Below are positions 4,112 to 18,427 of a stretch of 64,000 nt of DNA, one piece after another. The stretch's first letter is position 1; the number at the start of each line of letters is the position of its first letter. The position numbers and the translations under genes were made by a program. The stretch covers positions 1 through 64,000 of the forward strand of contig NZ_JALJCJ010000006.1 of assembly GCF_022899935.1 (NCBI RefSeq), in the 5' to 3' direction. Source of the stretch: Shinella curvata (GTDB taxonomy: Bacteria > Pseudomonadota > Alphaproteobacteria > Rhizobiales > Rhizobiaceae). The notes beneath the pieces were generated by a model, which saw only the letters and a program-made list of their open reading frames with translations, was not told where the DNA came from and did no database searches.

Positions 4112-4127
4112 GTAACTATCTAGTTAC
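4112..4127. promoter_or_regulatory. Predicted TetR operator, perfect copy (site A)
   Basis: The 16-bp sequence GTAACTATCTAGTTAC is a perfect inverted repeat with 7-bp arms and a 2-bp spacer. It lies 20 bp upstream of the acyl-CoA dehydrogenase start. Related copies occur at 4219-4234, 7744-7759 and 17615-17630, always between divergent genes of this cluster, the last next to the TetR gene. Confidence 0.7.
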
Positions 4128-4218
4128 ATACATTCGACCAATGGAGAACGTCAAGACGGAAAAATTCACGCGGGCTGAATGTCACTGCTTGCACAGCCCT
4201 TTGAGGCTGTGCATATTA

Positions 4219-4234
4219 TTCACTATTCAGTTAC
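4219..4234. promoter_or_regulatory. Predicted TetR operator, imperfect copy (site B)
   Basis: TTCACTATTCAGTTAC is a degenerate form of the GTAACTA-N2-TAGTTAC palindrome; read on the other strand it is GTAACTG-AA-TAGTGAA. It ends 14 bp before the start of the rightward aldo/keto reductase and just before its ribosome site, so a bound repressor would cover the initiation region of that gene. Confidence 0.5.
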
Positions 4235-4248
4235 TTAAGGAGGAAGAC

Positions 4249-5265
4249 ATGCACCCTGGAGAAAAGCGGAAATTTGGCCGGACAGACCTTGAGATCACCG
4301 CCTTCGGCTTTGGCACGGCGCCGCTCGGCAACATTTTTCGCGAGATCGACGAGGTGACCTCTCAGGAAATGTTCGCGCGCGCCTGGGAAGCTGGCGTGCG
4401 GTTCTTCGACACCGCCCCAATGTACGGCCACGGCCTTGCCGAACTGCGGACAAGCCATGCTCTCCGCTGGAAGAACCGGGACGATTTCGTGCTCGCCTCC
4501 AAGGTTGGACGCCTGCTGCGTCCGGCGCGCCGTGACACGATCAACTTCGCGCCGTGGACGAATGCCGCCCCCTTCACCATGCATTTCGACTACAGCTACG
4601 ATGGCACCATGCGCGCCTTCGAGGACAGCCTGCAGCGGCTGGGACTGGAGCGGATGGATATGTGCTTCATCCACGACATCGACGTTTTCACGCGCGGGAG
4701 CGAGCAGCCGGATGTTTTTGAGCAGGCCATGGACGGCGCCTGGCGGGCGCTGGAGCGGCTCCGCTCGGAGAAGGTTGTGAAGGCAATCGGTGTCGGCGTC
4801 AACGAATGGCAGGTCTGCCATAAAGCGCTTCTACGCCACGATTTCGACTGCTTCCTGCTGGCTGGCCGCTATACCCTGCTCGAACAGGAAGCGCTGGACG
4901 CCTTTCTTCCGCTCTGCGAAGCACGTGGTGCGGCAGTCGTTGTCGGCGGCGGCTTCAACTCGGGTATTCTTGCTACGGGGGCAAAGGACGGCGCGAAGTA
5001 CAATTATGCACCCGCACCCCGCGAGATCATGGAAAAGGTCGCGAAGATCGAAGCCGTATGCGCGGCGCATGGCGTGCCGCTTGCCGCAGCAGCGCTGCAA
5101 TTCGTCGTCGCTCATCCCGCCGTGCCGTCCTTCATGGCGGGCACGCGTACAATCGAGCAGCTCGACCAGAATCTCGCTTGGTTCTCCCACGCAATCCCAG
5201 CCGACTTCTGGGCGGACCTCAAGAAGAAGGGGCTGTTGCGCGAGGATGCACCTGTTCCGGTGTAA
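4249..5265 (+). CDS. Aldo/keto reductase (D-threo-aldose 1-dehydrogenase-like)
   Basis: A 338-residue AKR with the expected catalytic tetrad: Asp54 and Tyr59 in RFFDTAPMYG, Lys85 in VLASKV and His142 in CFIHDID. The sequence resembles the aldose/fucose 1-dehydrogenase and pyridoxal dehydrogenase branch, which oxidises sugar hemiacetals to lactones. I chose the ATG at 4249 because AAGGAGGA lies just upstream and the conserved KFGRTDLEITAFGFGTAPLGN start follows at once. The open frame extends further left but through the opposite-strand acyl-CoA dehydrogenase and the operator sites. It is transcribed divergently from the acyl-CoA dehydrogenase operon. Confidence 0.85.
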   Translation: MHPGEKRKFGRTDLEITAFGFGTAPLGNIFREIDEVTSQEMFARAWEAGVRFFDTAPMYGHGLAELRTSHALRWKNRDDFVLASKVGRLLRPARRDTINFAPWTNAAPFTMHFDYSYDGTMRAFEDSLQRLGLERMDMCFIHDIDVFTRGSEQPDVFEQAMDGAWRALERLRSEKVVKAIGVGVNEWQVCHKALLRHDFDCFLLAGRYTLLEQEALDAFLPLCEARGAAVVVGGGFNSGILATGAKDGAKYNYAPAPREIMEKVAKIEAVCAAHGVPLAAAALQFVVAHPAVPSFMAGTRTIEQLDQNLAWFSHAIPADFWADLKKKGLLREDAPVPV

Positions 5266-5274
5266 ATAGACATC

Positions 5275-5302
5275 AGCCCGCGTTGCGAGAGCGAGGCGGG
5301 CT
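5275..5302. terminator. Stem-loop between convergent genes
   Basis: AGCCCGC and GCGGGCT form a 7-bp stem with a 14-nt loop, starting 10 bp after the aldo/keto reductase stop. A second short hairpin (CGGGGC/GCCCCG) follows at 5308-5325. Together they fill the gap before the convergent enoyl-CoA hydratase end and could serve both strands; neither has a clear T tract. Confidence 0.45.
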
Positions 5303-5371
5303 TCCAGCGGGGCGCAATTGCCCCGAAATTTCAGTGTAGCCGCAAGGATTTGGATTTCGGATCGCTGGAAG

Positions 5372-6145
5372 CTACTTGCCAAAACGGGCAGGCCGCTTCT
5401 GCCGATAGGCAGCAAGTCCTTCTGTCAGATCGTCGGACGCTGCCGCCACGGCGCCGGCCAGGGCCTCCACGACCCGTTCGCTCTCCTCGCCTTCTGCGGC
5501 ATTGATCAGCATCTTGGTCAGTTCTGTCGCGCGCGGCGAGCGTCTCAACACACGCGCCGCGGCGGCCTCAGCAGCAGCAGCCCCCTCGCCCGTCGCCACG
5601 ACCTGATCGACGAGACCGAGCGCAAGCGCCTCCTGCGCCGCATAGACCTCGCCGAAAAGCGCCATGCGGCGAACAAGCTGCGCGCCAAAGCGGCGTGATG
5701 CGCGTTGCGTGCCGGACCAGCCGGGAATGATACCGAGGCCCGGCTCGGGCTGGCCGATCTTCACATGCGACTCGGCGATGCGCAGGTCTGCACAGGCGGC
5801 AAGCTCCAATCCGCCACCGAGCGCGTGCCCATTCAGCACCACGATCAGCGGCACGGTAAGGCGTGCCAGTGCGTCAAAGGCACCATGCCCGTCACGTAAC
5901 CAGCGGCGCGAAAACGTTTCAGCGTCGAGGCTGCTCCACGCTTCGATATCACCGCCCGCACAGAAGGACTCGCCGCCCTCGCCCGCAAAAATTGCGACCC
6001 GTGCATCCGAGCGTTCGATGATCCGGCACGCCTTCAGCAGCGCGTCGATCATCTCCTCGTCGATCGCATTCAGCTTTTCCGGACGGCGCAGAGTAATCCT
6101 TGCGACATGGTCCTCCACGGAAAGATCGACACGCGGATCGCTCAC
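5372..6145 (-). CDS. Enoyl-CoA hydratase/isomerase (crotonase family)
   Basis: A 257-residue crotonase of standard length. The oxyanion-hole segments FCAGGDIEAW and GHALGGGLELAACADLRIA are present, as are the Glu in GLELA and the Glu in QPEPGLG, matching the two catalytic acids of hydratases. It adds water to a 2-enoyl-CoA, the step after acyl-CoA dehydrogenase. The start is a GTG at 6145 overlapping the CoA-transferase stop as GTGA, so it is the second gene of a two-gene leftward unit. Confidence 0.87.
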   Translation of the reverse strand: MSDPRVDLSVEDHVARITLRRPEKLNAIDEEMIDALLKACRIIERSDARVAIFAGEGGESFCAGGDIEAWSSLDAETFSRRWLRDGHGAFDALARLTVPLIVVLNGHALGGGLELAACADLRIAESHVKIGQPEPGLGIIPGWSGTQRASRRFGAQLVRRMALFGEVYAAQEALALGLVDQVVATGEGAAAAEAAAARVLRRSPRATELTKMLINAAEGEESERVVEALAGAVAAASDDLTEGLAAYRQKRPARFGK

Positions 6146-7713
6146 AGCACCAGCCCCATGGGCTGCGCACGAAACAGCGCATCGTCCATCACCTTGAGCG
6201 ACGTCGAAACCCGCAACGGGGTTGCTGCCTGATTGAGAACATCGCGCTGGAGATCAAGACCCGGAGCGATCTCGGTAACGATCAGCCCATCCGTATCGAG
6301 CTCGATCACGCAACGTTCGGTGACATAGGTGATCTCCTGCCCCTGCGCACGTGCGCGCCTGCCGGAAAAGCTGACCTGATCGACCTTCGACACGAATTTG
6401 GCAATACGACCTTCCTTGTCGATCACCAGACGGCCATCCTCGATATGCATCTTCGCGCCGGCATTGAAATTACCCGAGAAGACGATCTTTTTCGCGCGTG
6501 AGGTGATGTCGACGAAGCCGCCGGCTCCCGCCGTGCGGTGCGGCGTTGCCGCGAGGCGGCTGACATTGACCGAACCTTCGGCATCGATTTCGAGGAAGGA
6601 CAGAAGCGAGCAATCAAAGCCGCCCGCCTGAAAATAACAGAACTGGTGGGGCGAGGCGACGAATGCTTCAGCGTTGGAGGCGCAGCCAAACTTGAAATCG
6701 AGAAGTGGCACGCCACCCACAGCGCCCTGCTCTATCACCCAGGTGACCTTGCCGTGCAGTCCCTCCTCGATCAGGATACGCGGCACATTGGCAGAAATGC
6801 CGAAGCCGATATTGACGGCCCAGCCATCCTTCAGTTCCTGCGCCACACGACGCGCGATGACCTTGCCCACATCGAGTTCCGGGAGGCGGAACGTTTCGAG
6901 CGGGCGGAAGAGTTCACCCGAGATTGCAGGATCATAAGGCGTCGCTGTCGTCTGCAGCTGGTCGGGCGCTTCGACGATCACATCGACGAGAATACCGGGG
7001 ACGCGAACATCATGCGGACGCAACGTGCCGCTTGCCGCCACGCGCTTGACCTGCGCGATAACGATGCCGCCGGAGTTGCGCGCCGCGAGCGCCATTTCCA
7101 TCGCGCCGAGCGTCGCGCCTTCCTGTTCGAAGGTGAGATTGCCCTTTTCGTCTGCGGTCGTTGCGCGGATGATCGCGACATCGGGACGGATCGCCGGAAA
7201 ATGCAGCCAGTCCTCGCCTTCGAAGGCAATGCGCTTGACAAGCGGAGCGGCACGCGCGCTGGCGTTCATCGCGCAACCGTCCTGATCGGGATCGACGAAC
7301 GTTTCCATGCCGACCTTCGTCAGCACGCCCGGCCGCTTAGCCGCCCCTTCGCGCAGCATGTCGAATACGATGCCAGACGGCACGTTCCAGGCGGCCAGCT
7401 CCTCCTTGAGGATCATCTGCCAGATGAGCGGCGGCTCGGCATTGCTCGGGCCGGAAGGATAGGAACCCCCAATGATCTTCACCAGCATGCCGGGCTTGGC
7501 GATGTGATCCACACCGCGCGTGCCGAAAAAGTCGCCGGCGGCAATCGGATGGATGGAGGTCAGGCCACGCGGATGACCTTCGTTATCGAAGCGCTCACCC
7601 AGTGCCTTCAGCACGGCGTCGGGGCAGCAAAGGCCGGAAGAAGAATTCACAGCAACGACCGCCCCATCCCTGACAAGCCGGACAGCCTCCTGCGCAGTCT
7701 TCACCTTCTTCAT
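6142..7713 (-). CDS. Acyl-CoA:acetate/3-ketoacid CoA-transferase (fused single-chain)
   Basis: A 523-residue class I CoA-transferase with alpha and beta halves fused, as in YdiF/SCOT-like enzymes. The N-terminal half carries GAVVAVNSSSGLCCPDAVL and GGSYPSGPS; the C-terminal half carries NIGFGISANVP and WVIEQGAVGG, whose Glu (~328) is the expected thioester-forming residue. It would activate a carboxylic acid by moving CoA from a donor such as acetyl- or succinyl-CoA, supplying the acyl-CoA dehydrogenase of the neighbouring operon. A near-perfect copy of the predicted operator lies 31 bp upstream of the start. Confidence 0.88.
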   Translation of the reverse strand: MKKVKTAQEAVRLVRDGAVVAVNSSSGLCCPDAVLKALGERFDNEGHPRGLTSIHPIAAGDFFGTRGVDHIAKPGMLVKIIGGSYPSGPSNAEPPLIWQMILKEELAAWNVPSGIVFDMLREGAAKRPGVLTKVGMETFVDPDQDGCAMNASARAAPLVKRIAFEGEDWLHFPAIRPDVAIIRATTADEKGNLTFEQEGATLGAMEMALAARNSGGIVIAQVKRVAASGTLRPHDVRVPGILVDVIVEAPDQLQTTATPYDPAISGELFRPLETFRLPELDVGKVIARRVAQELKDGWAVNIGFGISANVPRILIEEGLHGKVTWVIEQGAVGGVPLLDFKFGCASNAEAFVASPHQFCYFQAGGFDCSLLSFLEIDAEGSVNVSRLAATPHRTAGAGGFVDITSRAKKIVFSGNFNAGAKMHIEDGRLVIDKEGRIAKFVSKVDQVSFSGRRARAQGQEITYVTERCVIELDTDGLIVTEIAPGLDLQRDVLNQAATPLRVSTSLKVMDDALFRAQPMGLVL

Positions 7714-7743
7714 CGCCGAAATCTCCGTTACCGATTGCCTTAA

Positions 7744-7759
7744 GTAACTAACTAGTTAT
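7744..7759. promoter_or_regulatory. Predicted TetR operator (site C)
   Basis: GTAACTAACTAGTTAT is the same 16-bp palindrome as site A with one arm mismatch and an AC spacer. It lies between the CoA-transferase and the second aldo/keto reductase, which are transcribed divergently. Confidence 0.65.
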
Positions 7760-7851
7760 AGATTAATCGCAGATGAGGCAATCCGGCAAGCGAGATTTTC
7801 GTGCTGGATGAGAACCGGAATGGGACCAGATCGGTCCACAAAGGAGGAGGC

Positions 7852-8670
7852 ATGAACATCTATTTCCAGAAGGGTTTTCAGCGTGGTTTCGGCACCTATC
7901 CATTGAAAGGAGAGGAGCTCCGCAAGGCCATCGACGCTGCGATCGATGCCGGCTATCGGGCTTTCGATACGGCACAGATGTACGGCAACGAGGCCGAGAC
8001 GGGCACTGCCCTCGCAGCCTGCGGTGTTGCACGCGAAGAACTGTGCATCACGACGAAGGTGCATCCGGACAACTATTCGGAAGAGAAATTCCTGCCGTCG
8101 GTCGAGGCCAGCCTGAAAGCGCTGCAGATCGACCGCGTCGATGCGCTTCTGCTGCATTGGCCGCCCGTCGGGGGAGACGTGGCGCCATCCTTGCGCCTGC
8201 TACAGGCTGCGAGGGATCGGGGCCTCGCGGACACCATCGGCGTGTCGAACTACACGGCGCGTATGATGCATGTGGCACGCAATGTGATCGATGGGCCGCT
8301 CGTCACCAACCAGGTCGAGTTCCACCCTCTCGTCGACCAGCGGAAACTGCTTGCCGCCGCATCGGAGACCGGCATTCCGCTGTCGTCCTATGCTTCGATT
8401 GCCCGCGGCGAAGTGTTCAAGCACGGCCTTTTCGCCGAAATCGGCAAAATATATGGCAAGTCGGCCGCGCAGATCGTCCTGCGCTGGATCCTTCAAAAGG
8501 GTGTGCCGCTGAACACGATGTCGACGAAACAGGAAAACATCAAAGCGAATTTCGACATCATGGATTTCACGCTGTCATCGATCGACATGGACAGAATCGA
8601 TGCTCTGAACACCACCGGCTACCGGATCATCAAGCCAGGGCAGCTCCCCTGGGTTCCCGAATGGGATTAA
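7852..8670 (+). CDS. Aldo/keto reductase (2,5-diketo-D-gluconate reductase-like)
   Basis: A 272-residue AKR of the small DkgA/DkgB type. The tetrad Asp39, Tyr44, Lys69 and His102 is intact (AFDTAQMYG, ITTKV, LLLHWPP). It would reduce a ketone or aldehyde with NADPH, or oxidise the alcohol in reverse. The ATG at 7852 is preferred over an in-frame GTG at 7801 because AAGGAGGAGG precedes it and the alignable region starts there. It is divergent from the CoA-transferase operon across operator site C and stops just before a strong hairpin. It is distinct in subfamily from the other reductase at 4249. Confidence 0.85.
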   Translation: MNIYFQKGFQRGFGTYPLKGEELRKAIDAAIDAGYRAFDTAQMYGNEAETGTALAACGVAREELCITTKVHPDNYSEEKFLPSVEASLKALQIDRVDALLLHWPPVGGDVAPSLRLLQAARDRGLADTIGVSNYTARMMHVARNVIDGPLVTNQVEFHPLVDQRKLLAAASETGIPLSSYASIARGEVFKHGLFAEIGKIYGKSAAQIVLRWILQKGVPLNTMSTKQENIKANFDIMDFTLSSIDMDRIDALNTTGYRIIKPGQLPWVPEWD

Positions 8671-8674
8671 CGCA

Positions 8675-8700
8675 AAAGGGCGGCCGCAAGGCCGCCCTTT
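8675..8700. terminator. Strong bidirectional terminator
   Basis: AAAGGGCGGCC and GGCCGCCCTTT form a perfect 11-bp stem with a GCAA tetraloop. The A and T ends give U-rich tails in both directions, which fits its place between the converging aldo/keto reductase and GMC oxidoreductase genes. Confidence 0.85.
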
Positions 8701-8723
8701 CACGTGCAGGCCAGCGGGCACAA

Positions 8724-10322
8724 TCAGGCGTTGCCGCGGATCATGTCCGAGGCCTTTTCCCCGATCATGATCGTCGCCGCATTGGTGTTGGAGCCGACAA
8801 GGCTCGGCATGGTGGAGCTGTCGCAGATGCGGATGCCGTCAAGGCCGTGCACACGCAGTTGCGGATCGACCACTGACATCTCGTCGCGGCCCATCTTGCA
8901 GGTGCAGGTCGGATGATAGGAGGTGCGGCCGTACTGGCGCGCATAGGCCACATAGTCCGCTTCCGTCCGCACATTGCGGTCCGGGAAATGCAATGTCTTG
9001 ATATATTTTTGCAGCGACGGCTGCGCGAAAATCTCCTGGCTGATCTTCACGCCCTCGACCGAGATTTTTACATCGTCCGGGTCCGCAAGGAAATTCGGAT
9101 CAACGATCGGCAGGGCGCTCGGATCGGCCGAGCGAAGGCTAACCGTTCCACGCGATTTCGGCCGCAGCGTGTAGGAGTTGAGCGTGATGCCGGAAGACCC
9201 CTTCGGCACACCGGGAACGCCGGCCTCAGCGCCTGCACCTGCGAGGAAATGGAATTGCAGATCGGGCGTCGAGTTTGCCTTGTCGCCATACCAGAACGCA
9301 CCGCCCTCAACGACGTTCGACGTGATGGGGCCGGAATTGAAAAGGGTATATTGAATGCCCGCCCAGATCGACCAGTGCAGCTTGTTGTACTTGTCCAGGC
9401 TGTCGTGGTTCTTCAGCTCTGCGACGATATCGACACCAAAGTGGTCCTGCAGGTTCTGCCCGACGCCAGCCATATCCTGCACGACATCGATGCCTTGGCC
9501 GCGCAGATGATCCGCCGGCCCAACGCCCGAGAGCATCATCAGCTTCGGCGTACCAATAGCGCCTGAGGTGAGAAGCACTTCGCTGTCCGCCCGCGCCACC
9601 GTACGGCTGCCGCCGGCTTCATATTCAACACCAACGGCACGACGCCCTTCGAAAACCACACGCAGGACAAGCGCACCGGTGACGACAGTCAGGTTTGGAC
9701 GTTTCAACGCCGGCCGCAGATAGCCGACGGCCGCCGAGCAACGCCGGTTGTTGCGCGTGGTCGTCTGATAGACGCCCGCCCCCTCCTGCACCGGACCGTT
9801 GAAATCCGGGTTGTAGGGAATCCCGGCCTCCTGGCAGCTCTGCACGAAGGCGCGCGTCATACGCTGTGGTTCGGGAATGTTCGAAACGCCGAGCGGACCA
9901 TCCGTTCCATGCCAGGTGCCGGAAAGGATCGAATTGCCTTCCGAGCGCAGGAAATACTTGTGGATGTCCTTGAAGCCCCAGCCTTCGGCGCCCTCTTCCA
10001 CCCAGCGGTCATAGTCACCGGGAACGCCGCGGGTAAAAACCTCGGCATTGATCGACGAGCCGCCGCCGAGCACCTTGGCCTGCGCGTACAGGATCTCACG
10101 GTTGTTCGCATGCTTCTGGGGCGCGGTCTTAAGACCCCAGGTGAGCGGCCCCGTCGTCATCTTGGCGAAGCCGACGGGCATGTGGATCAGTGGATTCGTG
10201 TCACGCCCGCCCGCCTCGATGAGGCAGACCCGAACGGATGGATTTTCCGAAAGCCGCGCCGCCAGCACACAGCCCGCGCTGCCGCCGCCAACGATCACAT
10301 AATCATACCCCGTGGCCATCAT
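8724..10322 (-). CDS. GMC family FAD-dependent oxidoreductase (choline/alcohol dehydrogenase-like)
   Basis: A 532-residue GMC flavoprotein. The FAD-binding motif YVIVGGGSAGCVLAARLSE is at the N-terminus, the LGGGSSINAEVFTRG signature near residue 85, and the active-site His in SYHPTCTCKMG plus Asn in GSNTNAATIM near the C-terminus. These enzymes oxidise alcohols to aldehydes or ketones, passing electrons to a quinone, oxygen or another acceptor. The start ATG at 10322 overlaps the aldehyde dehydrogenase stop as ATGA; a second ATG is the next codon. It is the last gene of the long transporter operon. No signal peptide is seen, so it is probably cytoplasmic or membrane-associated. Confidence 0.9.
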   Translation of the reverse strand: MMATGYDYVIVGGGSAGCVLAARLSENPSVRVCLIEAGGRDTNPLIHMPVGFAKMTTGPLTWGLKTAPQKHANNREILYAQAKVLGGGSSINAEVFTRGVPGDYDRWVEEGAEGWGFKDIHKYFLRSEGNSILSGTWHGTDGPLGVSNIPEPQRMTRAFVQSCQEAGIPYNPDFNGPVQEGAGVYQTTTRNNRRCSAAVGYLRPALKRPNLTVVTGALVLRVVFEGRRAVGVEYEAGGSRTVARADSEVLLTSGAIGTPKLMMLSGVGPADHLRGQGIDVVQDMAGVGQNLQDHFGVDIVAELKNHDSLDKYNKLHWSIWAGIQYTLFNSGPITSNVVEGGAFWYGDKANSTPDLQFHFLAGAGAEAGVPGVPKGSSGITLNSYTLRPKSRGTVSLRSADPSALPIVDPNFLADPDDVKISVEGVKISQEIFAQPSLQKYIKTLHFPDRNVRTEADYVAYARQYGRTSYHPTCTCKMGRDEMSVVDPQLRVHGLDGIRICDSSTMPSLVGSNTNAATIMIGEKASDMIRGNA

Positions 10323-11815
10323 GCGATCCAATGCGTGCGCTTGCCGATTTCGACATGAACGGACTTCACCTGCGTATACTCCTCCACCCCGTAAATACCG
10401 GCCTCGCGGCCCCAGCCGGACTGCTTGAAGCCCCCGAGCGGCATTTCGGGGCCACCAGCCATGATCGTGTTGACCCAGAAGCGTCCGGCACGCACACGGC
10501 GGCTGACCGTCAGCGCCTTGTCGATATTCTTCGTCCAGACGCTCGCGGCAAGCCCATAAACGGTATCGTTCGCAAGCTGGATGGCTTCTTCCACCGTATC
10601 GAAATGCATGGAGCACAGAACGGGGCCGAAAATCTCGTCGCGGGCAATCGCCATGTCGCGAGAGACGCCGGAAAAGAGCGTCGGCGCGATGTATTGGCCG
10701 CGGCCGAGATCGATCACCTCGCCGCCGGTCAGCAGCTTGGCACCGGCCGCCTTGCCCTTTTCGATATAGTCGAGGATCGTCGCATTCTGCGCTTCGGTGG
10801 TAATGGCGCCGACCTGCGTGCGCTCATCGAGCGGATCGCCGACGCGGATCTTCTTCATCTTCTCGACAAGCAGTTTCTCGAATTCCACAGCGACGGAACG
10901 CTCGACAATCAGGCGCGAAGACGAGACGCAGCACTGTCCGGTGTTGAAGCTTATCCCGAAGGCCGCGCCATCGGCGGCGTCTTCGAGATCGGAGTCGGCG
11001 AAGACGATGATCGGGTTCTTGCCGCCCAACTCCAGGCCGAGCTTCTTGAAGTTGCTATCGGCGGCGGCGTGAACGCAGGAACGGCCGACGGCCGTCGAGC
11101 CGGTGAAAGAGAGCATATCGACGTCGAGATGCTCGGACAGCGCCTGGCCGATCGTACGGCCGGAACCGGTGACGACGTTGTAGACGCCGGACGGCAGACC
11201 CGCCTCGGCCAGCACTTCGGCAAGCAGCAGCGTCGTTGCAGCGGTGACCTCCGAGGGCTTCACGACCATCGTGCAGCCCGATGCCAGAATGAAGGGTACG
11301 CGCTCGCAGAGGATCAGGAACGGGAAATTCCACGGCGTGATGAGGCCAACGACGCCGATCGGCTCGCGCAGCACCATGCCGAAGAGATCGTCGCCGAGCG
11401 AATTGAAGCTGTCGCCATGCAGCATGCGGGCGGCACCGGCGCCGACTTCGAAGCAGGCAATGCAATGATCGATCTCGCCACGCGCCTGGGAAATCGGCTT
11501 GCCGTTTTCCAGGGCTTCCCAATAGGCGATCTCGTCGCGGCGACGGCGCAGGATTTCAGCGACCCGCAGCAGAACGCTGCCGCGTGCCGCGCCCGAAAGG
11601 CCGGCCCAGCGGCGATCTTCGAAAGCCCGGCGTGCGGCGGCGACGGCGGCATTCAGATCATCGACCGTGCAGCGAACCGTCCGCGTGACCGCCGTGCCGT
11701 GTCCGGGCGACGTGCGTTCGAAGTGCTCCGCGCCGTCCTTCCATTGCCCATCGACAAAAAAGCCGAAGGTGCGTGCCGCGGTCGGGGCAGAAAGAAACTG
11801 GTTTTTCTGGTCCAT
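10319..11815 (-). CDS. NAD(P)-dependent aldehyde dehydrogenase
   Basis: A 498-residue ALDH of full length. Visible motifs are TPWNFPFLIL near residue 155, the catalytic-base Glu in LELGGKNP near 255, and the nucleophile in FNTGQCCVSSSRL near 290. It resembles betaine-aldehyde and similar broad-range ALDHs. It lies between the zinc dehydrogenase and the GMC oxidoreductase in the CUT2 transporter operon, where it would turn the aldehyde made by either enzyme into an acid, which the CoA-transferase could then activate. Confidence 0.9.
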   Translation of the reverse strand: MDQKNQFLSAPTAARTFGFFVDGQWKDGAEHFERTSPGHGTAVTRTVRCTVDDLNAAVAAARRAFEDRRWAGLSGAARGSVLLRVAEILRRRRDEIAYWEALENGKPISQARGEIDHCIACFEVGAGAARMLHGDSFNSLGDDLFGMVLREPIGVVGLITPWNFPFLILCERVPFILASGCTMVVKPSEVTAATTLLLAEVLAEAGLPSGVYNVVTGSGRTIGQALSEHLDVDMLSFTGSTAVGRSCVHAAADSNFKKLGLELGGKNPIIVFADSDLEDAADGAAFGISFNTGQCCVSSSRLIVERSVAVEFEKLLVEKMKKIRVGDPLDERTQVGAITTEAQNATILDYIEKGKAAGAKLLTGGEVIDLGRGQYIAPTLFSGVSRDMAIARDEIFGPVLCSMHFDTVEEAIQLANDTVYGLAASVWTKNIDKALTVSRRVRAGRFWVNTIMAGGPEMPLGGFKQSGWGREAGIYGVEEYTQVKSVHVEIGKRTHWIA

Positions 11816-11839
11816 GAAATAGCTCCACTTCGATAGGTC

Positions 11840-12880
11840 TTACGCCGCGATGGCGATCTGTGTCTTCAGGTCCCGCGGCCGTTCGCCGAGGGTTTCGAAC
11901 GCCTCCTGGATCCTGTCCAGGGAATAGCTCGCCTTGGTAAAATCATTCGTATGGAAACGGCCGTGCGACAGAAGGGTCAGCGCATCGTGCATATCCTCCC
12001 CCATGCCGGCGACGGACCCCTTGAGGCTGCCCTCTTCCAGAACCGTGCGGAGGATATCGACGGGGACGGTTTCGCCCGGCGGCGTGATGCCGAAAAAGGC
12101 GACATGTCCGCCACGGCGCGCCAGATCGAAAGCCTGCTCATAGAGTTTTCGATTGCCGACGCTTTCGATGACGACATCCGCACCGCGTCCACCGGTCATC
12201 CGAAGTACGGTCGCCTTCAGTTCTGCAGGATCGGAGACGGCGGCATCCGCGCCGGCTTCGAGCGCCATGCGGCAACGATCGGCCGAGAGATCCGCGACGA
12301 TGATGGGGGCGGCTCCGACAAGCCGCATCATCTGCACATGCAGGTTACCGATCGGCCCGGCACCGAAGATGACGACGGACTGGCCGAAGGCGACCCCCGC
12401 CTTGCGCGCGGCCCGAACGACGCAGGCAACCGGCTCCGTGAGAGCCAGAACCTCGTCGGAAATAGCGCCATCGACCGGAATTGCGAGGCGCGCGGGCACG
12501 GCGACGAATTCGGCGAAGGCACCATCCCGGCCGATACCGACCTGCGTGACTTCGGCACAATTCAGCACCTCGTTGCGACGGCACCAGAAGCAGGTGCCGC
12601 AGCCGATATTGATGTCGACGACGACACGCGTACCGACCGCGAGATGACGAACATTGCTGCCACACTTCGCGATCGTCCCGCAGAACTCATGCCCCGGTAT
12701 GAGCGGCAATTTGTCAGAGGCGTAGTGACCATTGAAGATATGAATATCCGTGCCGCAGATACCCGTGCGCGTCACCCGCACGAGGACATCCTCCGGCCCG
12801 ACGGCTGGCACAGGGACATCGCGCAGTTCAAAACGCTTCGGTGTGGTCAGGACGGCAGCGCGCATGGTGCTCATCGCCAT
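11840..12880 (-). CDS. Zinc-dependent alcohol dehydrogenase (sorbitol/threonine dehydrogenase-like MDR)
   Basis: A 346-residue medium-chain dehydrogenase. Catalytic-zinc ligands are visible in GICGTDIH (Cys42) and GHE (His64/Glu65). A complete structural-zinc loop is present with Cys at 94, 97, 100 and 108. The nucleotide motif GAGPIGN follows. It would oxidise a secondary or sugar alcohol using NAD(P). It starts 3 bp after the permease stop in the same operon, so its substrate is probably what the transporter imports or a close product. Confidence 0.88.
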   Translation of the reverse strand: MAMSTMRAAVLTTPKRFELRDVPVPAVGPEDVLVRVTRTGICGTDIHIFNGHYASDKLPLIPGHEFCGTIAKCGSNVRHLAVGTRVVVDINIGCGTCFWCRRNEVLNCAEVTQVGIGRDGAFAEFVAVPARLAIPVDGAISDEVLALTEPVACVVRAARKAGVAFGQSVVIFGAGPIGNLHVQMMRLVGAAPIIVADLSADRCRMALEAGADAAVSDPAELKATVLRMTGGRGADVVIESVGNRKLYEQAFDLARRGGHVAFFGITPPGETVPVDILRTVLEEGSLKGSVAGMGEDMHDALTLLSHGRFHTNDFTKASYSLDRIQEAFETLGERPRDLKTQIAIAA

Positions 12881-12883
12881 CCC

Positions 12884-13825
12884 TCACTTTACCGTGCGCA
12901 GCTTGGCGCGGTCGATGGTCAGTGCGATGGCGACGATCAGCACGATGCCAAACACGATCTGCTGGCGTGTCGCATCAATCTCGAAATAGAGCATCGAGGC
13001 GCGGATGACGGCGACGATGAGCGTGCCGATCACCGTATTGACCACACCGCCCACACCGCCCGTCAAAGGCGTGCCGCCGACAAGAACGGCAACGATGGCC
13101 GGCAGCAGAAAGCCGTTGGCGATGGTTGGCGCGCCGCCCGAGAGTTTGACCGCGAAAAGGAGGCCGGCAATGGCCGCAAGCGCACCCGAAATCGCAAAGG
13201 CGAGTATCTTGTAACGTGCGACGTTGAGGCCGGAAGCGGCAGCGGCGAGTTCGCCGGCACCGACAGCTTTCAGGGCACGACCGAGCGTCGTGCGGCGTTC
13301 GATGAAGAGGCAGATTGCTACAAGCACGGCGGCAATCAGCAGTTCGTTCGGCACGCCCCAGGTGTGGCCGATCATCCAGCCGAAGGTCTCGTTGCGCTGC
13401 GTCGCATCCATGTTGAGCGCCCGCTGGCCGGAAAGCCATTGCGCGATCGAGAAGGCGACGCCGCCGACGGCGAGCGTCGAGATGAACGACGGCACGAAAA
13501 GGCGCGTCGTCACATAGCCGGAGAGCATGCCGAGCAGGAAGCCTGCGAGCACGCAGAACACGGCGACCCAGGCTCCCATCGAAGCAAGATAGACAGAGGC
13601 AACGACCGTTACCATGTTGGCCACGGACTGGGCCGAAAGGTCGATGCCGCCGATATAGATGGCGAAGGTGAGCCCAAGCGCCATGATGAACAACGGCACG
13701 ATATCGCCGGCAATACCGAGAAGGTTCGAAGGGCGCAGGAAACCCGGATCGTTGATGCCGACGATCGCGACGAGCACGACAAGCGTGATCCAGGGCAGGT
13801 GCGGTTTGAGGCGCTGAATATCCAT
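12884..13825 (-). CDS. CUT2-type sugar ABC transporter permease
   Basis: A 313-residue inner-membrane permease of the RbsC/AraH/RhaP type, with about eight to ten hydrophobic segments. The IYIGGIDLSAQSVANM region near residue 55 and the LLPAIVAVLVGGTPLTGG region near 240 are typical of the family. I chose ATG 13825, which opens MDIQRLKPHLPW, 8 bp after the ATPase stop; the longer frame upstream lacks family similarity. With the permease at 15348 it should form the heterodimeric channel, as in rhamnose-type systems that carry two permease genes. Confidence 0.9.
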   Translation of the reverse strand: MDIQRLKPHLPWITLVVLVAIVGINDPGFLRPSNLLGIAGDIVPLFIMALGLTFAIYIGGIDLSAQSVANMVTVVASVYLASMGAWVAVFCVLAGFLLGMLSGYVTTRLFVPSFISTLAVGGVAFSIAQWLSGQRALNMDATQRNETFGWMIGHTWGVPNELLIAAVLVAICLFIERRTTLGRALKAVGAGELAAAASGLNVARYKILAFAISGALAAIAGLLFAVKLSGGAPTIANGFLLPAIVAVLVGGTPLTGGVGGVVNTVIGTLIVAVIRASMLYFEIDATRQQIVFGIVLIVAIALTIDRAKLRTVK

Positions 13826-13833
13826 CTTGTCCC

Positions 13834-15339
13834 TCAGATCATGTAGTGCAGCAGGTCGAAGGGCGTGGGCTTGGCGCCCGGTTCGCAAGCGAATTCCTTC
13901 TGCATGCGCCCATCCTTGACGACGATGATAGTGTGCGACAGGCCGATGGCCTCTTCCAGCGTATCGGCGACGAGAACGATGCCGACGCCAGCCGCGCTCA
14001 TCGCACGGACCATGTCGTAAACATCTTCCTTCGCGCCGATGTCGAGACCGCGTGTCGGATGGTCGAGCAACATGATATCCGACCCACCCGAGCGCCACTT
14101 GGCGAGCACGACCTTCTGCTGGTTGCCGCCCGAAAGGTTGCCGCAATCGGCAAATTCCGAATGTGCCTTGATCGAGAGCTTCCTGATCCACTCGCGCGCC
14201 AGCGCCCGCTCTTCCCCAACGCGCAGAACACCGCTGCTGGAATGGTTCTTCATCTGCGAGAGCGTCATGTTCTCGTAGACGTTCATGCCGGCAACGATGC
14301 CTTCGATCTTGCGCTCGCGCGGTACGTAACCCACACCGCTCGCAACCGACTGACGCGGCGAATAGCCGTTGGCATCCCTGCCCTTGATCTTGAGGCGCCC
14401 CGTCACTGGTGTCAGCATGCCGTAGATCGTGCGCAGGATCGCCTCACGTCCGGAGCCTTCCGTGCCGACGAGGCACAGGACTTCGCCGGCATGCACTTTG
14501 AACGAAATATCCTGGATACGCCCCGGCAGGCCGACACCAGTCATCTCGACCAGCACTTTCGAACGGTCGAACGGCGTCTGCAGGTGTTCCCTGTAATATT
14601 GCTTGTCGACGTTACGGCCGACCATTTTGTGCTGGATGGCCTCCGCGGTCGCGCCGCCACGCTCCACCACGTCGACCACCTCACCGTCCTTCATGACATA
14701 GATGCGGTCGGACAGTTCCATGACCTCATCCATGCGGTGCGAGACAAAGATGAAGGAAGCACGGGTCGTCAGTTCACGAACGAGCTTGAAGAGCAGTTGC
14801 ACCTCGTCCTTGGAGAGCACGGAGGTCGGCTCATCGAGCAGGATGACGAGATCGCCCTTGACCCGCTCCTCCAGCGTCAGAACCTTGGCAAGTTCAACGA
14901 GCTGTCGCTGAACGAAGGACAACTTCGACGTCACCGTCGCGGGGTCGATATCGAGCTTCACCTTGGCGAGCTGTGCTTTGGCCGCCGCCGCCATCGCCTT
15001 CCAGTCGACGATGCCGAAGCGCACGAACTGGCGCTCGTAGCCGAGGAAGATGTTTTCCATGACAGTCAGGTTGGGGATCAGGGACTGCTCCTGGAACACC
15101 ATCCCGATGCCCTTTTCCATCGCCTGACGCGGATTGGAAAAACGCACGCCCGCACCATTGATGAGGATCTGGCCGCCGTCCGGCTGATAGGCTCCGTAGA
15201 TGACCTTCATCAGAGTGGATTTGCCGGCGCCGTTCTCTCCCACAAGCCCGACGATCTCGCCGCGCTTGATATGAAAGTTGATGGACTTGAGTGCGTGGAC
15301 ACCGGGGAACTTCTTATCGACAGCCTTGAGTTCGTACAT
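13834..15339 (-). CDS. CUT2-type sugar ABC transporter ATP-binding protein (two nucleotide-binding domains)
   Basis: A 501-residue tandem ATPase typical of ribose/xylose/rhamnose importers. The first domain has an intact Walker A (GENGAGKST, ~33-41), LSFVQRQLVELAKVL and a LLDEPTS Walker B. In the second domain the Walker A is degenerate (GTEGSGREA) while LSGGNQQKVVLAKW and LLDHPTRGLD remain, the usual asymmetry in this family. The ATG at 15339 opens MYELKAVDKKFPGV; the frame extends further upstream but there it overlaps the permease gene. Confidence 0.92.
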   Translation of the reverse strand: MYELKAVDKKFPGVHALKSINFHIKRGEIVGLVGENGAGKSTLMKVIYGAYQPDGGQILINGAGVRFSNPRQAMEKGIGMVFQEQSLIPNLTVMENIFLGYERQFVRFGIVDWKAMAAAAKAQLAKVKLDIDPATVTSKLSFVQRQLVELAKVLTLEERVKGDLVILLDEPTSVLSKDEVQLLFKLVRELTTRASFIFVSHRMDEVMELSDRIYVMKDGEVVDVVERGGATAEAIQHKMVGRNVDKQYYREHLQTPFDRSKVLVEMTGVGLPGRIQDISFKVHAGEVLCLVGTEGSGREAILRTIYGMLTPVTGRLKIKGRDANGYSPRQSVASGVGYVPRERKIEGIVAGMNVYENMTLSQMKNHSSSGVLRVGEERALAREWIRKLSIKAHSEFADCGNLSGGNQQKVVLAKWRSGGSDIMLLDHPTRGLDIGAKEDVYDMVRAMSAAGVGIVLVADTLEEAIGLSHTIIVVKDGRMQKEFACEPGAKPTPFDLLHYMI

Positions 15340-15347
15340 GGCGCGCC

Positions 15348-16331
15348 TCACTTCACAAAGGAAACCATCTTGCGGTCGGTCGAGAGCACCACCGCAAGAA
15401 TGACGAGGAGACCGAGCACGCCGTCCTGAAGGAAATCGGGCAGGCCGATAACGACCATGCCATTGTCGATGACATTGACGATGAGCACGCCGACAAGGGC
15501 GTTCCAGACGCCGCCGATGCCGCCCCACAGCGCCACGCCGCCAACGACCACCGAGGTGATGGAGACGAACATGAAGTTTGCGCCGGTCACGGATTCAGCC
15601 TGTCCGATGCGGGCAACGACGAGCATCGCGGCGATGGCGTAGAAGACGCCGGCAAGTGCAAAGCCGGTCACGCGGACACGGGTGACGTTGAGACCGGAGG
15701 CGTGTGCGAGGTCTTCGCCGCCACCGACCGCGTAGAAGTTGCGGCCAAGCGTCGTGTGGGTCTGGATGAACCAGCCGACGAAGAGAAAGAAGGCCGCGAC
15801 ATAGACCATCAGCGGGAATCCGAGCCAGCGGACCGTGAGCAGGCCGCGGAACGTCGCATCACTCACCTTCACAATGTCGCCGCCGGTGAGCAGGATCGCC
15901 GCGCCCGTGCCGACGAAGCCCATGGCAAGGCTCGCCATGAATGACGGGATCTTCAGTTTCACATGCACCAGCCCGTTCAAGAGCCCGATCACGCCGCCAA
16001 TAACGAGCACCAGCGGAATGGCAATCCAGCCGAGACCCGCAAGCGAGCCGCCGAGCTGGGCGAAGATGAAGGCGAAGGAGACGGCCGTGAGCGAGACCGT
16101 GCCCTCCATGGAGAGATCAATCGACCCCATGACGATGATGAAGGTGACGCCGACGGCGACCATGAGCGCTGGAGCCGCGGCAATCGCGATACGGGCGAAG
16201 TTGCGCAGCGAAAAGAACGTCGGGTTGAGCGCGGTGAAAAAGATCACAAGCGCGATCAGCACCAGGAGCGGCGCCCATTTGATCATGGTTTCGCGCGATA
16301 GGCGACGTGTCACGTCAGACACCCCTCTCAT
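15348..16331 (-). CDS. CUT2-type sugar ABC transporter permease
   Basis: A 327-residue permease, the partner of the one at 12884. It carries IVMGSIDLSMEGTVSL and SITSVVVGGVALWGGIGG, both characteristic of the family, and about nine membrane segments. The start at 16331 opens MRGVSDVTRRLSRET and lies 52 bp after the binding-protein gene; an internal ATG at 16286 is possible, as neither has a strong ribosome site. Expression of the channel genes may depend on read-through from the binding-protein gene. Confidence 0.9.
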   Translation of the reverse strand: MRGVSDVTRRLSRETMIKWAPLLVLIALVIFFTALNPTFFSLRNFARIAIAAAPALMVAVGVTFIIVMGSIDLSMEGTVSLTAVSFAFIFAQLGGSLAGLGWIAIPLVLVIGGVIGLLNGLVHVKLKIPSFMASLAMGFVGTGAAILLTGGDIVKVSDATFRGLLTVRWLGFPLMVYVAAFFLFVGWFIQTHTTLGRNFYAVGGGEDLAHASGLNVTRVRVTGFALAGVFYAIAAMLVVARIGQAESVTGANFMFVSITSVVVGGVALWGGIGGVWNALVGVLIVNVIDNGMVVIGLPDFLQDGVLGLLVILAVVLSTDRKMVSFVK

Positions 16332-16383
16332 GAAAGTTCGCAGGAGATGTGGCGGCAGCACCCATGGCCGCCGCCCTGCCCAA

Positions 16384-17499
16384 TCAGGCCTTGTACTGAA
16401 TCCGGCCGTTCGACGGCCCCCAGAAGTCCTTCCAGTCATAGGCCGGAACGGAATCGAGGTACTTCGCCTTGAACTCCGCAGCATCCTTGGCCGTGATAAG
16501 GATCGTCGGGCCGTAAAATTCGCGATGTTCCTTGGGCTCTTCGGACGGCTTAAAGGTGCCGATGGCGGCATGATAGGCAAGGGCTGCACTGATGCCGCCG
16601 CCCCAATGCGGATTGGTGAAGACGGTGGCGAGCAGCTGGCCGTCCATGACCATCTGTACAGCTTCCGGATTGCCGTCATAGGCAACGATCGGCATGTTCT
16701 CGATGCCCTCGGCACGCAACGCCTCGATCACGCCATAGGCGATGTTGTCGGCGGCGCAATGCACGCCCTTGATCTTGTCGCCGTAGCGCGTGAGGAACGA
16801 GGCCATGAGGGCCGCGCCCTTCTGGGTGTCCCAATCGGCCGGCTGCGCGTCGAGCAATTCGATCTTCGGAAAATCCTTCAGCGCATTCTTGAGGCCGGCA
16901 AGGCGCTCGACCGCGGGATTGTTCGCCGCAATACCGCCGAGATGAACCACGCCGCCCTCGCCGCCCATGGCTTCGAAGAGGATGCGTGCGGTCTGTTCCG
17001 CCGGCTTCTCGTCCGACCAGGTCATGTGCGAGACGTAGTTGTCGCCGAAATCCCAGGGATGCAGGTCGTCGGTCTTGTTCCAGATCGTCGAGACATAGGC
17101 GCCGGCAGCCTGAACGGCCTCAACGATGGGGCGCGCATTCGGGCTGTCATTGGCGTCGCACGCAATAGCGCAATTGCCATTGTTCTTCGCGAGGAAGGCC
17201 TTGATGTCGGACAGCGACTTTTCCGTGGAACCTTCGTTGATCAGACTGACCAGCGCACTTTTCGGCTTGCCGAGCGATTCCACAAAGGCCTCTCCACCCG
17301 AAACGACCGAGTTCCAATAGGCCGAAGCGCGATCACGGTAGCTCCAGGCAATCGCCGGATCCGTCAGCGCGGCACGCGCACTTCCGCCACCGAACAGACC
17401 GGGCACCGCAACGGCGCCCATGCCGGCCGCAGCGGCGAACAGAAAATTGCGGCGACTGACCGTCTCGCGCTCGATGAAATCCTTGATAAAGGTCGACAT
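16384..17499 (-). CDS. Sugar-type ABC transporter substrate-binding protein with Tat-like signal
   Basis: A 371-residue periplasmic-binding-protein-I type sugar receptor. The N-terminus holds a twin-arginine motif, VSRRNFLFAAAAG, then a hydrophobic stretch ending GGGSARA, so export by the Tat route is likely. The body has CAIACDANDSPNARPIVEAV, VHCAADNIAYGVIEAL and IVAYDGNPEAV, matching ribose/rhamnose-type binding proteins. The ATG at 17499 follows a GGGAGG ribosome site. It is the first gene of the operon, and its promoter region holds operator site D. The ligand cannot be told from sequence. Confidence 0.88.
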   Translation of the reverse strand: MSTFIKDFIERETVSRRNFLFAAAAGMGAVAVPGLFGGGSARAALTDPAIAWSYRDRASAYWNSVVSGGEAFVESLGKPKSALVSLINEGSTEKSLSDIKAFLAKNNGNCAIACDANDSPNARPIVEAVQAAGAYVSTIWNKTDDLHPWDFGDNYVSHMTWSDEKPAEQTARILFEAMGGEGGVVHLGGIAANNPAVERLAGLKNALKDFPKIELLDAQPADWDTQKGAALMASFLTRYGDKIKGVHCAADNIAYGVIEALRAEGIENMPIVAYDGNPEAVQMVMDGQLLATVFTNPHWGGGISAALAYHAAIGTFKPSEEPKEHREFYGPTILITAKDAAEFKAKYLDSVPAYDWKDFWGPSNGRIQYKA

Positions 17500-17614
17500 T
17501 CTTTCCTCCCAAATCCCCGATTGAAACGCTTCCCGCGTTACCGCTCGCCTGATTGCCAGCAAGGAGAACATCCCCTCGGGCGTGACGCTCCAGAGCGCCT
17601 CCCGCCGCAATTAA

Positions 17615-17630
17615 CGCACTAACTAGTTAC
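17615..17630. promoter_or_regulatory. Predicted TetR operator (site D)
   Basis: CGCACTAACTAGTTAC has one perfect arm (TAGTTAC) and one degenerate arm of the GTAACTA-N2-TAGTTAC palindrome. It lies between the transporter operon and the TetR gene, so the regulator probably controls both the operon and itself. Confidence 0.6.
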
Positions 17631-17773
17631 TTCTTTAGTTTTGCGCAAGTCAAGTGGTTTTCAGCGGGATGGCAACAGCCAATCGCACCACCCGGCTTTG
17701 ACGGATGGCAATACGTGCGTGTATGAGTTGCAGGAAAGACATCACGACTGCGCCAAAAGGACAGGCTGAAAAC

Positions 17774-18427
17774 ATGAGCGGCGAACAGACAGAAAAACCG
17801 GGACGCAAACCCCGCATTCGCGACGCCGAGGCCACCAAGGCACGCATTCTGGATGCCGCAAAAAAAGAATTTGCGAAGAATGGCTTAGGTGGCGCCCGCG
17901 TCGACGATATCGCCGAGAAGGCGAAAGCCAACAAACGTATGATCTATCACTATTTCGAGAGCAAGGAGGGCTTGTTCCAGACTGTTCTCGAAGACGCCTA
18001 TCTCGACATCCGCAGCGCAGAGCAGAAGCTGCATCTGGAAGATCTCGATCCCAAGGGAGCGCTTGAAAAGCTGGTGCGTTTCACCTGGGAATATTATCTC
18101 AAAAACCCGGAATTCCTGACACTGGTCAACAGTGAGAACCTGCACCGCGCGAAGCACCTCAAGAAATCTGAGATCATCAAGGTTTCAAGCCGCAAGCTCG
18201 TCAGCCTGGTCTCGAGCATCCTGGAGCGTGGCGTGACGGCGGGCGTCTTCCGGGACGGCGTCGATCCCGTGCAACTCAACATCACCATTGCCGCAGTCGG
18301 CTACTATTATCTGACGAACCGCTTCACCGGCACGATCATCTATGAGCGCGATCTCATGGCGAAGGATGCGCTGGAACAGCGCATCCAGTTCAATATCGAT
18401 ACGATCATGCGACTCGTCACGATTTAA
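17774..18427 (+). CDS. TetR/AcrR family transcriptional regulator
   Basis: A 217-residue regulator. The N-terminal helix-turn-helix is clear: ATKARILDAAKKEFAKNG, GARVDDIAEKAKANKRMIYHYF, then ESKEGLFQTVLEDAY. The C-terminal ligand domain resembles the TetR_C group found in repressors of catabolic operons. I chose ATG 17774 because an AAAGGACA-like site precedes it; an in-frame ATG at 17705 would add 23 residues without family similarity. It is divergent from the CUT2 operon. The repeated palindromes in the cluster make it the likely repressor of at least five transcription units; the inducer is unknown. Confidence 0.9.
   Translation: MSGEQTEKPGRKPRIRDAEATKARILDAAKKEFAKNGLGGARVDDIAEKAKANKRMIYHYFESKEGLFQTVLEDAYLDIRSAEQKLHLEDLDPKGALEKLVRFTWEYYLKNPEFLTLVNSENLHRAKHLKKSEIIKVSSRKLVSLVSSILERGVTAGVFRDGVDPVQLNITIAAVGYYYLTNRFTGTIIYERDLMAKDALEQRIQFNIDTIMRLVTI

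Follow-up and report, generated by a model that had tools for sequence, protein, structure and literature searches.

A recurrent palindrome as the predicted operator of a TetR-family repressor in a catabolic gene cluster of Shinella curvata

Local TetR-family repressors of catabolism, such as RutR and AcuR, combine an N-terminal helix–turn–helix (HTH) domain of the TetR_N type with palindromes lying over neighbouring catabolic promoters. A similar arrangement is present in the window, the whole 64,000-nucleotide stretch of Shinella curvata DNA analysed here, where profile matches identify a TetR-family regulator (TetR_N and TetR_C_29), the proposed repressor, encoded on the forward strand at 17774–18427. 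The N-terminal HTH domain (PF00440) scores 55.1 bits, above the cut-off of 24, and the C-terminal domain (PF17938) scores 136.2 bits, above the cut-off of 26.2. The protein also matches the RutR model TIGR03613 (62.3 bits) and the AcuR model NF051457 (29.5 bits), weakly and under the equivalog cut-offs of 368 and 247. Unlike RutR and AcuR, it reaches the cut-off of none of the 19 matched NCBIfam models, and its C-terminal domain is TetR_C_29. The start codon at 17774 was picked by comparison with relatives; an in-frame ATG is located upstream at 17705. A palindrome found at the promoters of the adjacent cluster (AAGTAACYANNTRGTTACTT-like in relatives) is very probably the operator through which this TetR represses the cluster operons, since many relatives that carry the same TetR have it at the same promoters.

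Gene content of the cluster

The first gene of operon 1, on the reverse strand, encodes an acyl-CoA dehydrogenase family protein (ACAD, 2950–4092). It is followed on the same strand by genes for an SDR oxidoreductase (2174–2953; above the cut-off of NCBIfam NF009386), a DUF993 protein (1014–2162), with a solved homologue, PDB 4dnh, named only ‘Uncharacterized protein’, and a xylose-isomerase-like TIM barrel (AP_endonuc_2; 154–1017), just past which the contig ends. In some relatives, ETF genes come after the TIM-barrel gene. Aldo/keto reductase 1 (AKR1) is encoded on the forward strand (4249–5265). Operon 2, on the reverse strand, begins with a CoA-transferase gene (6142–7713), the product of which resembles the FadX model below its cut-off, and its second gene encodes an enoyl-CoA hydratase family protein (ECH, 5372–6145). 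Aldo/keto reductase 2 (AKR2; 7852–8670, forward strand) resembles the DkgB model, also below the cut-off.

The presumed transporter operon occupies the reverse strand. Its first gene encodes a sugar-type binding protein (16384–17499) with a Tat signal apparent by eye; then come CUT2-type permease 2 (15348–16350, upstream end approximate), the CUT2-type ATP-binding protein (13834–15339) and CUT2-type permease 1 (12884–13825), the last two with chosen, presumptive starts. A zinc-type alcohol dehydrogenase (11840–12880), an aldehyde dehydrogenase (ALDH, 10319–11815) and, as the last gene, a GMC oxidoreductase resembling choline dehydrogenase (8724–10322) complete the presumed operon.

Candidate operators in the window and the host genome

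The pattern GTAACTA-N2-TAGTTAC has exactly four matches with up to three mismatches in the 64-kb window, against a chance expectation of 0.11 (sd 0.31, largest value 1 in 100 shuffles). The original prediction had placed a perfect copy at 4112 and imperfect ones at 4219, 7744 and 17615; these coordinates and sequences are correct, with 0, 3, 1 and 3 mismatches, respectively. Its assignment of the sites to three divergent promoter regions, the last beside the TetR gene, agrees with the gene map. No strand is assigned to the sites. The ACAD/AKR1 interval holds the perfect palindrome GTAACTATCTAGTTAC (4112–4127), 20 bp before the ACAD start by coordinate difference, and the imperfect site at 4219–4234, which immediately precedes the AKR1 ribosome-binding site, 15 bp from the AKR1 start. 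The third site (7744–7759) lies in the CoA-transferase/AKR2 interval, upstream of both genes, at 31 bp from the CoA-transferase start and 93 bp from AKR2. The fourth (17615–17630), in the interval separating the binding protein and TetR genes, is asymmetric, with one intact and one defective half-site; by eye, it lies over the presumed −10 of the transporter operon and overlaps no evident TetR promoter, which leaves autoregulation of the TetR conjectural. Presumed promoters picked out by eye for CoA-transferase (TTGCCT-17-TAACTA), binding protein (TTGACT-17/18-(G)TAACT(A)) and ACAD (TTGACG-18-TATGTA) indicate that the operators overlap the presumed −10 region.

One palindrome was predicted to serve the ACAD, CoA-transferase and CUT2 operons and both aldo/keto reductases. 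Sites are indeed present for the ACAD operon, AKR1 and the CoA-transferase and CUT2 operons, but AKR2 has no site of its own in the window, the nearest being that at 7744, 93 bp away; in relatives, 13 sites lie closer to AKR2.

A conserved local regulon should have sites that are rare outside its target promoters and are kept at orthologous promoters alongside the factor. The 6.07-Mb genome contains 12 places within three mismatches of the plain consensus, four in the cluster and eight elsewhere. Only two places have two mismatches or fewer, with the degenerate consensus too, and both are in the cluster; the motif is thus not common elsewhere in the genome. The pattern read backwards, as a control, gave 74 places compared with 12 for the real pattern (up to three mismatches), and 19 compared with two for the degenerate consensus at two mismatches, so the genome holds fewer copies of the motif than of its reverse, with no genome-wide enrichment. 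Taken alone, the three-mismatch sites at 4219 and 17615 are indistinguishable from the eight three-mismatch matches elsewhere; they are credible only because their position is conserved in relatives.

Conservation in relatives and alternative explanations

Among 297 genomes of the family, perfect GTAACYANNTRGTTAC occurs in 16 of the 22 with the TetR, versus 3 of the 275 without it. The remaining six TetR genomes have 18 one-mismatch sites, 14 of them in the cluster by coordinates; in one of these genomes the sole such site lies 20 bp before ACAD. As the backwards control is as frequent there (28 matches versus 18, 19 of the 28 coming from one genome), only cluster position supports the one-mismatch sites of these six. 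In 38 further TetR-bearing genomes, hand-chosen from 80, a perfect site was found in 27, and 22 of 29 such sites lie before ACAD. Genome G202 has a perfect site without relation to the cluster, and G033 has one close to a different binding-protein gene. Sites are thus present in orthologous clusters with the same TetR, at orthologous promoters, and their positions are kept in records of several alphaproteobacterial groups.

The spacing census covers 122 sites, motif-retrieved loci (L156–L197) and double-counted sites having been left out. Distances to the same start codons are narrow, mostly 7–49 bp for the ACAD, AKR1, CoA-transferase, second GMC dehydrogenase (GMC2) and ALDH sites, and no site falls within mapped genes. 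In relatives, all 25 ACAD-class sites lie 13–24 bp from the start and 12 of 13 AKR1-class sites (up to two mismatches) 14–21 bp from it, both in loci retrieved independently of the motif; the 24 CoA-transferase sites lie at 14–38 bp. Of 73 non-redundant divergent regions between binding-protein and TetR genes, 71 contain YGCACYANNYRGTTACT, and the defective half-site of the transporter operator is conserved. The sites follow gene rearrangements: one genome (L053/L110) has a rearranged TetR-[site]-ACAD-SDR-TIM unit and another locus (L126) a TetR-[site]-CoA-transferase operon; a break in the operon ahead of ALDH likewise carries a site. A second GMC dehydrogenase also has sites upstream in relatives, as does an MFS transporter in two Gluconobacter genomes.

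At 9 of the 14 loci examined, more distant relatives of the TetR (42–55% identical) are accompanied by a site of no more than one mismatch directly before a Gfo/Idh-DUF993 operon; five lack this arrangement. The recognition-helix region reads NKRMLYHYF in five aligned sister TetRs, four of them from the nine loci with the site, versus NKRMIYHYF in the window TetR. This near-identity, and a genome (G257) in which both TetR clusters are present and have one operator type, would fit an operator type common to two related TetRs in some genomes, with cross-control between the cluster and its sister Gfo/Idh-DUF993-TIM cluster. Such cross-control is unlikely, albeit less so than the other alternatives. 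Among the candidates scored in the host genome (10 of 29), a single TetR match reaches E ≤ 1e-30, and no further site lies within two mismatches of the degenerate consensus, so cross-control is probably inapplicable to the window's own genome.

It is highly improbable that the palindromes are operators of another regulator encoded elsewhere, with the TetR merely a neighbour. One genome (G066, a fragmented assembly) has ACAD, CoA-transferase and sites with a best TetR match of 46% identity, and the TetR travels with the cluster, so that co-occurrence cannot fully part the two readings. Yet the TetR and the sites do co-occur across genomes, reduced units of TetR and site exist, sister TetRs whose recognition helix is almost identical have the same operator next to them, and the mapped cluster genes of the window yielded no regulator other than the TetR. 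Activation rather than repression at the sites is, if anything, slightly less probable still. Some TetR-family members are activators; however, the ACAD, AKR1, CoA-transferase, GMC2 and ALDH sites lie mostly 7–49 bp before starts and, judged by eye, on or next to the presumed −10, a position from which a bound dimer would obstruct polymerase.

In 88 non-redundant loci retrieved with the TetR protein (88 of 100 retained after dropping duplicates; degenerate consensus with gene masks), 73 sites with at most one mismatch were found, none within the 898 kb of mapped coding DNA, whereas 200 permuted patterns averaged 0.3; at two mismatches the figures were 109 and 7.5, and at three mismatches 8 of 241 sites fell in mapped coding DNA. 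With flanks from which most ACAD and CoA-transferase sites are missing, the contrast is weak (45 real, 25–34 for several permuted patterns, two mismatches). An origin of the repeats by chance, or as a non-regulatory element (a terminator or an insertion-related repeat, for example), can be practically dismissed: two of the four sites do have three mismatches, as at eight other genome places, but the permutation contrast, the empty coding DNA, the narrow start-codon distances and the positions kept across several alphaproteobacterial groups stand against it.

Proposed function and comparison with related clusters

Under repression by the local TetR, a dimer would, without inducer, occupy the −10/+1 region of the ACAD operon, AKR1 and the CoA-transferase operon and block transcription, and would likewise block the operon of the CUT2 transporter and the alcohol and aldehyde dehydrogenases. 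A single inducer would presumably serve all the operons. The TetR may be released by a pathway intermediate, perhaps near the DUF993/TIM-barrel steps, and the putatively weak half-site at the transporter may let the inducer's precursor enter at a basal level. The compound imported would be sugar- or polyol-like and could be oxidised by the GMC oxidoreductase, aldehyde dehydrogenase, AKRs and alcohol dehydrogenase, converted to a CoA ester, dehydrogenated and hydrated; the pathway may end at least partly in glycerate.

More broadly, and tentatively, the cluster could represent an undescribed alphaproteobacterial pathway in which a sugar or polyol is oxidised, CoA-loaded, dehydrogenated and hydrated, then passed to glycerate through DUF993/TIM steps that a sister sugar pathway also uses. 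A single TetR subfamily and its one operator might have been retained beside the DUF993/TIM module while the upstream enzymes were replaced, with the conserved half-broken transporter operator tuning basal uptake. The pathways for 1,4-butanediol/4-hydroxybutyrate, pantothenate, 2-deoxyribonate, apionate and C-glycosides were set aside, as none of them appears to contain the full gene set. The predicted regulon joins generic oxidoreductases and the domain of unknown function DUF993 into a single unit under a putative switch, in organisms ranging from Sinorhizobium meliloti to Gluconobacter, and a reporter on any cluster promoter would be a direct inducer screen, hence a substrate screen. From the operator, further members can also be predicted in relatives (the second GMC dehydrogenase, ETF genes, the Gluconobacter MFS transporter) that could escape gene-neighbourhood analysis alone.

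A search of the literature on DUF993/PF06187 and the presumed SMc0413x and SMa14xx tags found no functional account of the cluster; SMc04132 is presumably a DUF993 gene. One source lists SMc04132 as an uncharacterised protein (PMC12542648), and the carbon-source table of a pSymA deletion study, within the available part, does not separate the pSymA-dependent sources from the others (PMC4207669). Searching with the half-site sequence and TetR gave nothing relevant among the matches listed.

The sister TetR/Gfo-Idh/DUF993/TIM-barrel clusters share with the window cluster the operator type, an adjacent operon containing DUF993 and, in most, the TIM barrel. Unlike in the window, a Gfo/Idh-like dehydrogenase is their first enzyme and takes the place of the acyl-CoA dehydrogenase/SDR pair; across the 20-kb stretches of the nine loci, the listed matches include no ACAD, CoA-transferase or enoyl-CoA hydratase. 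The cluster of S. meliloti 1021 on pSymA (about 770.0–787.5 kb), compared from ACAD to TetR using a record without gene annotation there, differs in a glycerate kinase-like gene between AKR1 and ECH, absent from that place in the window, in having one site (up to three mismatches) in the ACAD/AKR1 interval whereas the window has two, and in an additional three-mismatch site before ALDH. Its genes from ACAD to TetR are nevertheless in the same order, its sites lie in the same three divergent regions and its TetR is 76% identical.

Putative operators and gene order of the cluster

A scan of the window with GTAACTA-N2-TAGTTAC at up to three mismatches returned four matches against 0.11 expected, confirming the palindrome copies noted in three divergent regions. 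The sites at 4112 (perfect) and 4219 (three mismatches) lie between the acyl-CoA dehydrogenase (ACAD) and first aldo/keto reductase (AKR1) genes, the site at 7744 (one mismatch) between the CoA-transferase and second aldo/keto reductase (AKR2) genes, and the site at 17615 (three mismatches) between the binding-protein and TetR genes. At three mismatches, the 6.07-Mb genome contains 12 matches, four of them within the window; at up to two, its only two matches are both in the window, in line with the predicted rarity elsewhere. With the consensus refined from relatives, GTAACYANNTRGTTAC, 4112 and 7744 alone are left in the whole genome at up to two mismatches. The reversed pattern, used as a control, is commoner genome-wide (74 places for the plain motif at up to three mismatches, 19 for GTAACYANNTRGTTAC at up to two), so the motif is simply rare in this genome. 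Sites 4112 and 7744 are strong by themselves; 4219 and 17615 require further support. Both aldo/keto reductases had been assigned to the regulon; this is supported for AKR1 by the 4219 site and AKR1-proximal sites in relatives. For AKR2, the window scan at up to three mismatches found no operator of its own.

The window starts at the contig end, toward which ACAD, SDR, DUF993 and TIM-barrel (AP_endonuc_2) genes run in that order on the reverse strand. After this operon come AKR1 (forward), CoA-transferase and enoyl-CoA hydratase (reverse), AKR2 (forward), a reverse-strand series encoding a binding protein, permease, ATPase, permease, zinc-type alcohol dehydrogenase, aldehyde dehydrogenase (ALDH) and GMC oxidoreductase, and TetR (17774–18427, forward). 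The next gene, for an Rrf2-family regulator (18637–19140, strand opposite TetR), showed no connection with the operators. The ACAD operon may be truncated past the TIM-barrel gene by the contig end at window position 1. ETF-like genes follow the TIM barrel in three of seven annotated left-flank stretches of relatives (L143, L146 and L147) and also in L090; Pfam, run on two of them, found ETF domains in both, and the remaining ETF-like genes and an ETF-QO-like gene were assigned by eye from sequence starts.

Co-occurrence with TetR and site positions

The TetR-regulon interpretation is supported well past the window evidence by co-occurrence, permutation control, site positions and sister TetRs. 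Judged from sequence, the putative regulon is widely conserved; literature searches (open-licence papers) found no published account of it. TetR, at 67% identity or more, is encoded in 22 of 297 genomes sampled from the family (the next best match has 55%). Perfect GTAACYANNTRGTTAC is present in 19 of the 297: 16 of the 22 with TetR versus three of the 275 without. In 15 of these 16, the perfect site lies 13–21 bp (coordinate difference) before ACAD, the window's own genome being placed by window coordinates; the sixteenth, in G233, stands before a second GMC gene. As for the three exceptions, G066 carries ACAD and CoA-transferase genes plus additional sites belonging to the same cluster, G033 has its site near a different binding-protein gene and encodes a 48% identical TetR relative, and the G202 site looks unrelated to the cluster. 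The reversed pattern gave single perfect matches in nine of the 297 genomes, two being TetR genomes. The six TetR genomes that lack a perfect site contain 18 one-mismatch sites; by coordinates, 14 are in the TetR cluster, two belong to a sister cluster in G257 and the last two lie outside both. The reversed control gave 28 matches in these genomes, 19 from one of them, so counts by themselves are no proof in those six. The single one-mismatch site of G156 is 20 bp before ACAD. A second ACAD copy in G156 (L222, G156:C1:3122854-3123972), 65% identical with one internal stop in the match, is possibly decayed.

The permutation control covered 88 non-redundant TetR-fetched loci (1.635 Mb, left after removal of 12 duplicates from 100), 200 permuted half-sites and masks of 898 kb of mapped coding DNA. 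At up to one mismatch, 73 sites were found versus a permuted mean of 0.3; 58 fall in the 75 bp preceding the start of a mapped cluster gene, and the mapped coding DNA contains none. Two mismatches gave 109 sites (permuted mean 7.5), with 84 near starts and none in coding DNA, and three gave 241, with 109 near starts and eight in coding DNA. None of 122 distinct sites with up to two mismatches, in loci fetched independently of the motif, is inside a mapped gene. They precede ACAD (25, at 13–24 bp), CoA-transferase (24, 14–38 bp), the second GMC (15, 7–16 bp, one at 31), ALDH (14, 35–49 bp), AKR1 (13, 14–21 bp, one at 197) and AKR2 (13, 30–83 bp); five are nearest TetR, two nearest the binding protein and 11 have no mapped gene nearby. 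Most of the defective transporter operators exceed two mismatches and therefore fall outside this count.

Wider relatives and rearranged candidate targets

As expected, the motif recurs in orthologous clusters with the same TetR, among the family genomes, the TetR-fetched loci and 38 wider genomes. The latter, hand-picked, mainly isolates and searched whole, were taken from the genomes behind 80 named loci kept from 429 relatives, with titles naming Rhizobiales, Rhodobacterales, Gluconobacter and others. A perfect site occurs in 27 of the 38, and 28 of the 29 sites were placed (all but the second site of G327): 22 before ACAD, two before ALDH (one by coordinates against L135), two before an MFS transporter, both in Gluconobacter, one before an ETF-like pair (by eye) and one before a small gene beside TetR. 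In L196, a small gene adjoining TetR (ORF 1535–1963) has a perfect operator right before its start. The sole perfect operator of two Gluconobacter genomes (L171, L172), at 1501, precedes the MFS transporter gene, and the fetched Gluconobacter TetR cluster stretches (L132, L142) contain no CUT2 genes; this transporter is predicted to be a replacement uptake system. In several loci, a second GMC dehydrogenase gene, its product about 50–60% identical to that of the cluster, has a separate operator a short way ahead of its start, sometimes several kb away from TetR (L044, 19553; L045, 326; L101, 16826; L148, 8812; and others).

Sinorhizobium meliloti 1021 (L215, pSymA 770000–805000) has a cluster with matching sites and a glycerate kinase-like gene, which offers a genetically tractable strain for this regulon. 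The glycerate kinase-like protein (DUF4147 and MOFRL) has matches of more than 45% identity in 13 loci, two in same-genus genomes. Because its gene occurs in S. meliloti, Gluconobacter and others, glycerate is suggested as an end product.

Putative transporter operator, sister TetRs and proposed repression

Of the 73 non-redundant regions between divergent binding-protein and TetR genes, 71 have YGCACYANNYRGTTACT at the binding-protein promoter, and the remaining two (L060, L139) have close variants. This operator is asymmetric, with one half-site intact and the other reading GCAC versus the expected GTAAC. That a defective half-site has been kept over such distances hints at selection, which may favour leaky uptake; alternatively, a transcription-start constraint may keep it. 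GTCAAG (the TTGAC element on the other strand) stands at promoter distance in most of the alignment rows listed.

Fourteen loci were examined around TetR relatives 40–55% identical to the window TetR. Nine have a Gfo/Idh-like gene, with DUF993 after it, immediately downstream of a site at up to one mismatch; the TetRs near these sites are 42–55% identical to the window TetR. L203 has sites and lacks the Gfo/Idh-DUF993 genes, L212 has Gfo/Idh and TIM genes and lacks the site, and L207, L210 and L213 have neither those genes nor a site at up to one mismatch. The recognition-helix region reads NKRMLYHYF in five aligned sister TetRs (four from the nine loci) versus NKRMIYHYF in the window TetR. 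Operator and helix thus stay together even where the target operon begins with different enzymes, and this co-conservation is the best computational link of the proposed repressor to the palindrome. In G257 (L051, L211), a window-type TetR cluster and a sister one coexist and share the operator type, which poses the question of cross-regulation.

The presumed promoters, read by eye, are TTGACG-18-TATGTA for ACAD, TTGCAC-17-CATATT for AKR1, TTGCCT-17-TAACTA for CoA-transferase and TTGACT-17/18 for the binding protein; by the same reading, the operators overlap or adjoin the presumed −10 elements. This placement fits repression through polymerase block, in which TetR on the operators would prevent transcription. 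A pathway intermediate would then release TetR, as is usual for catabolic TetRs.
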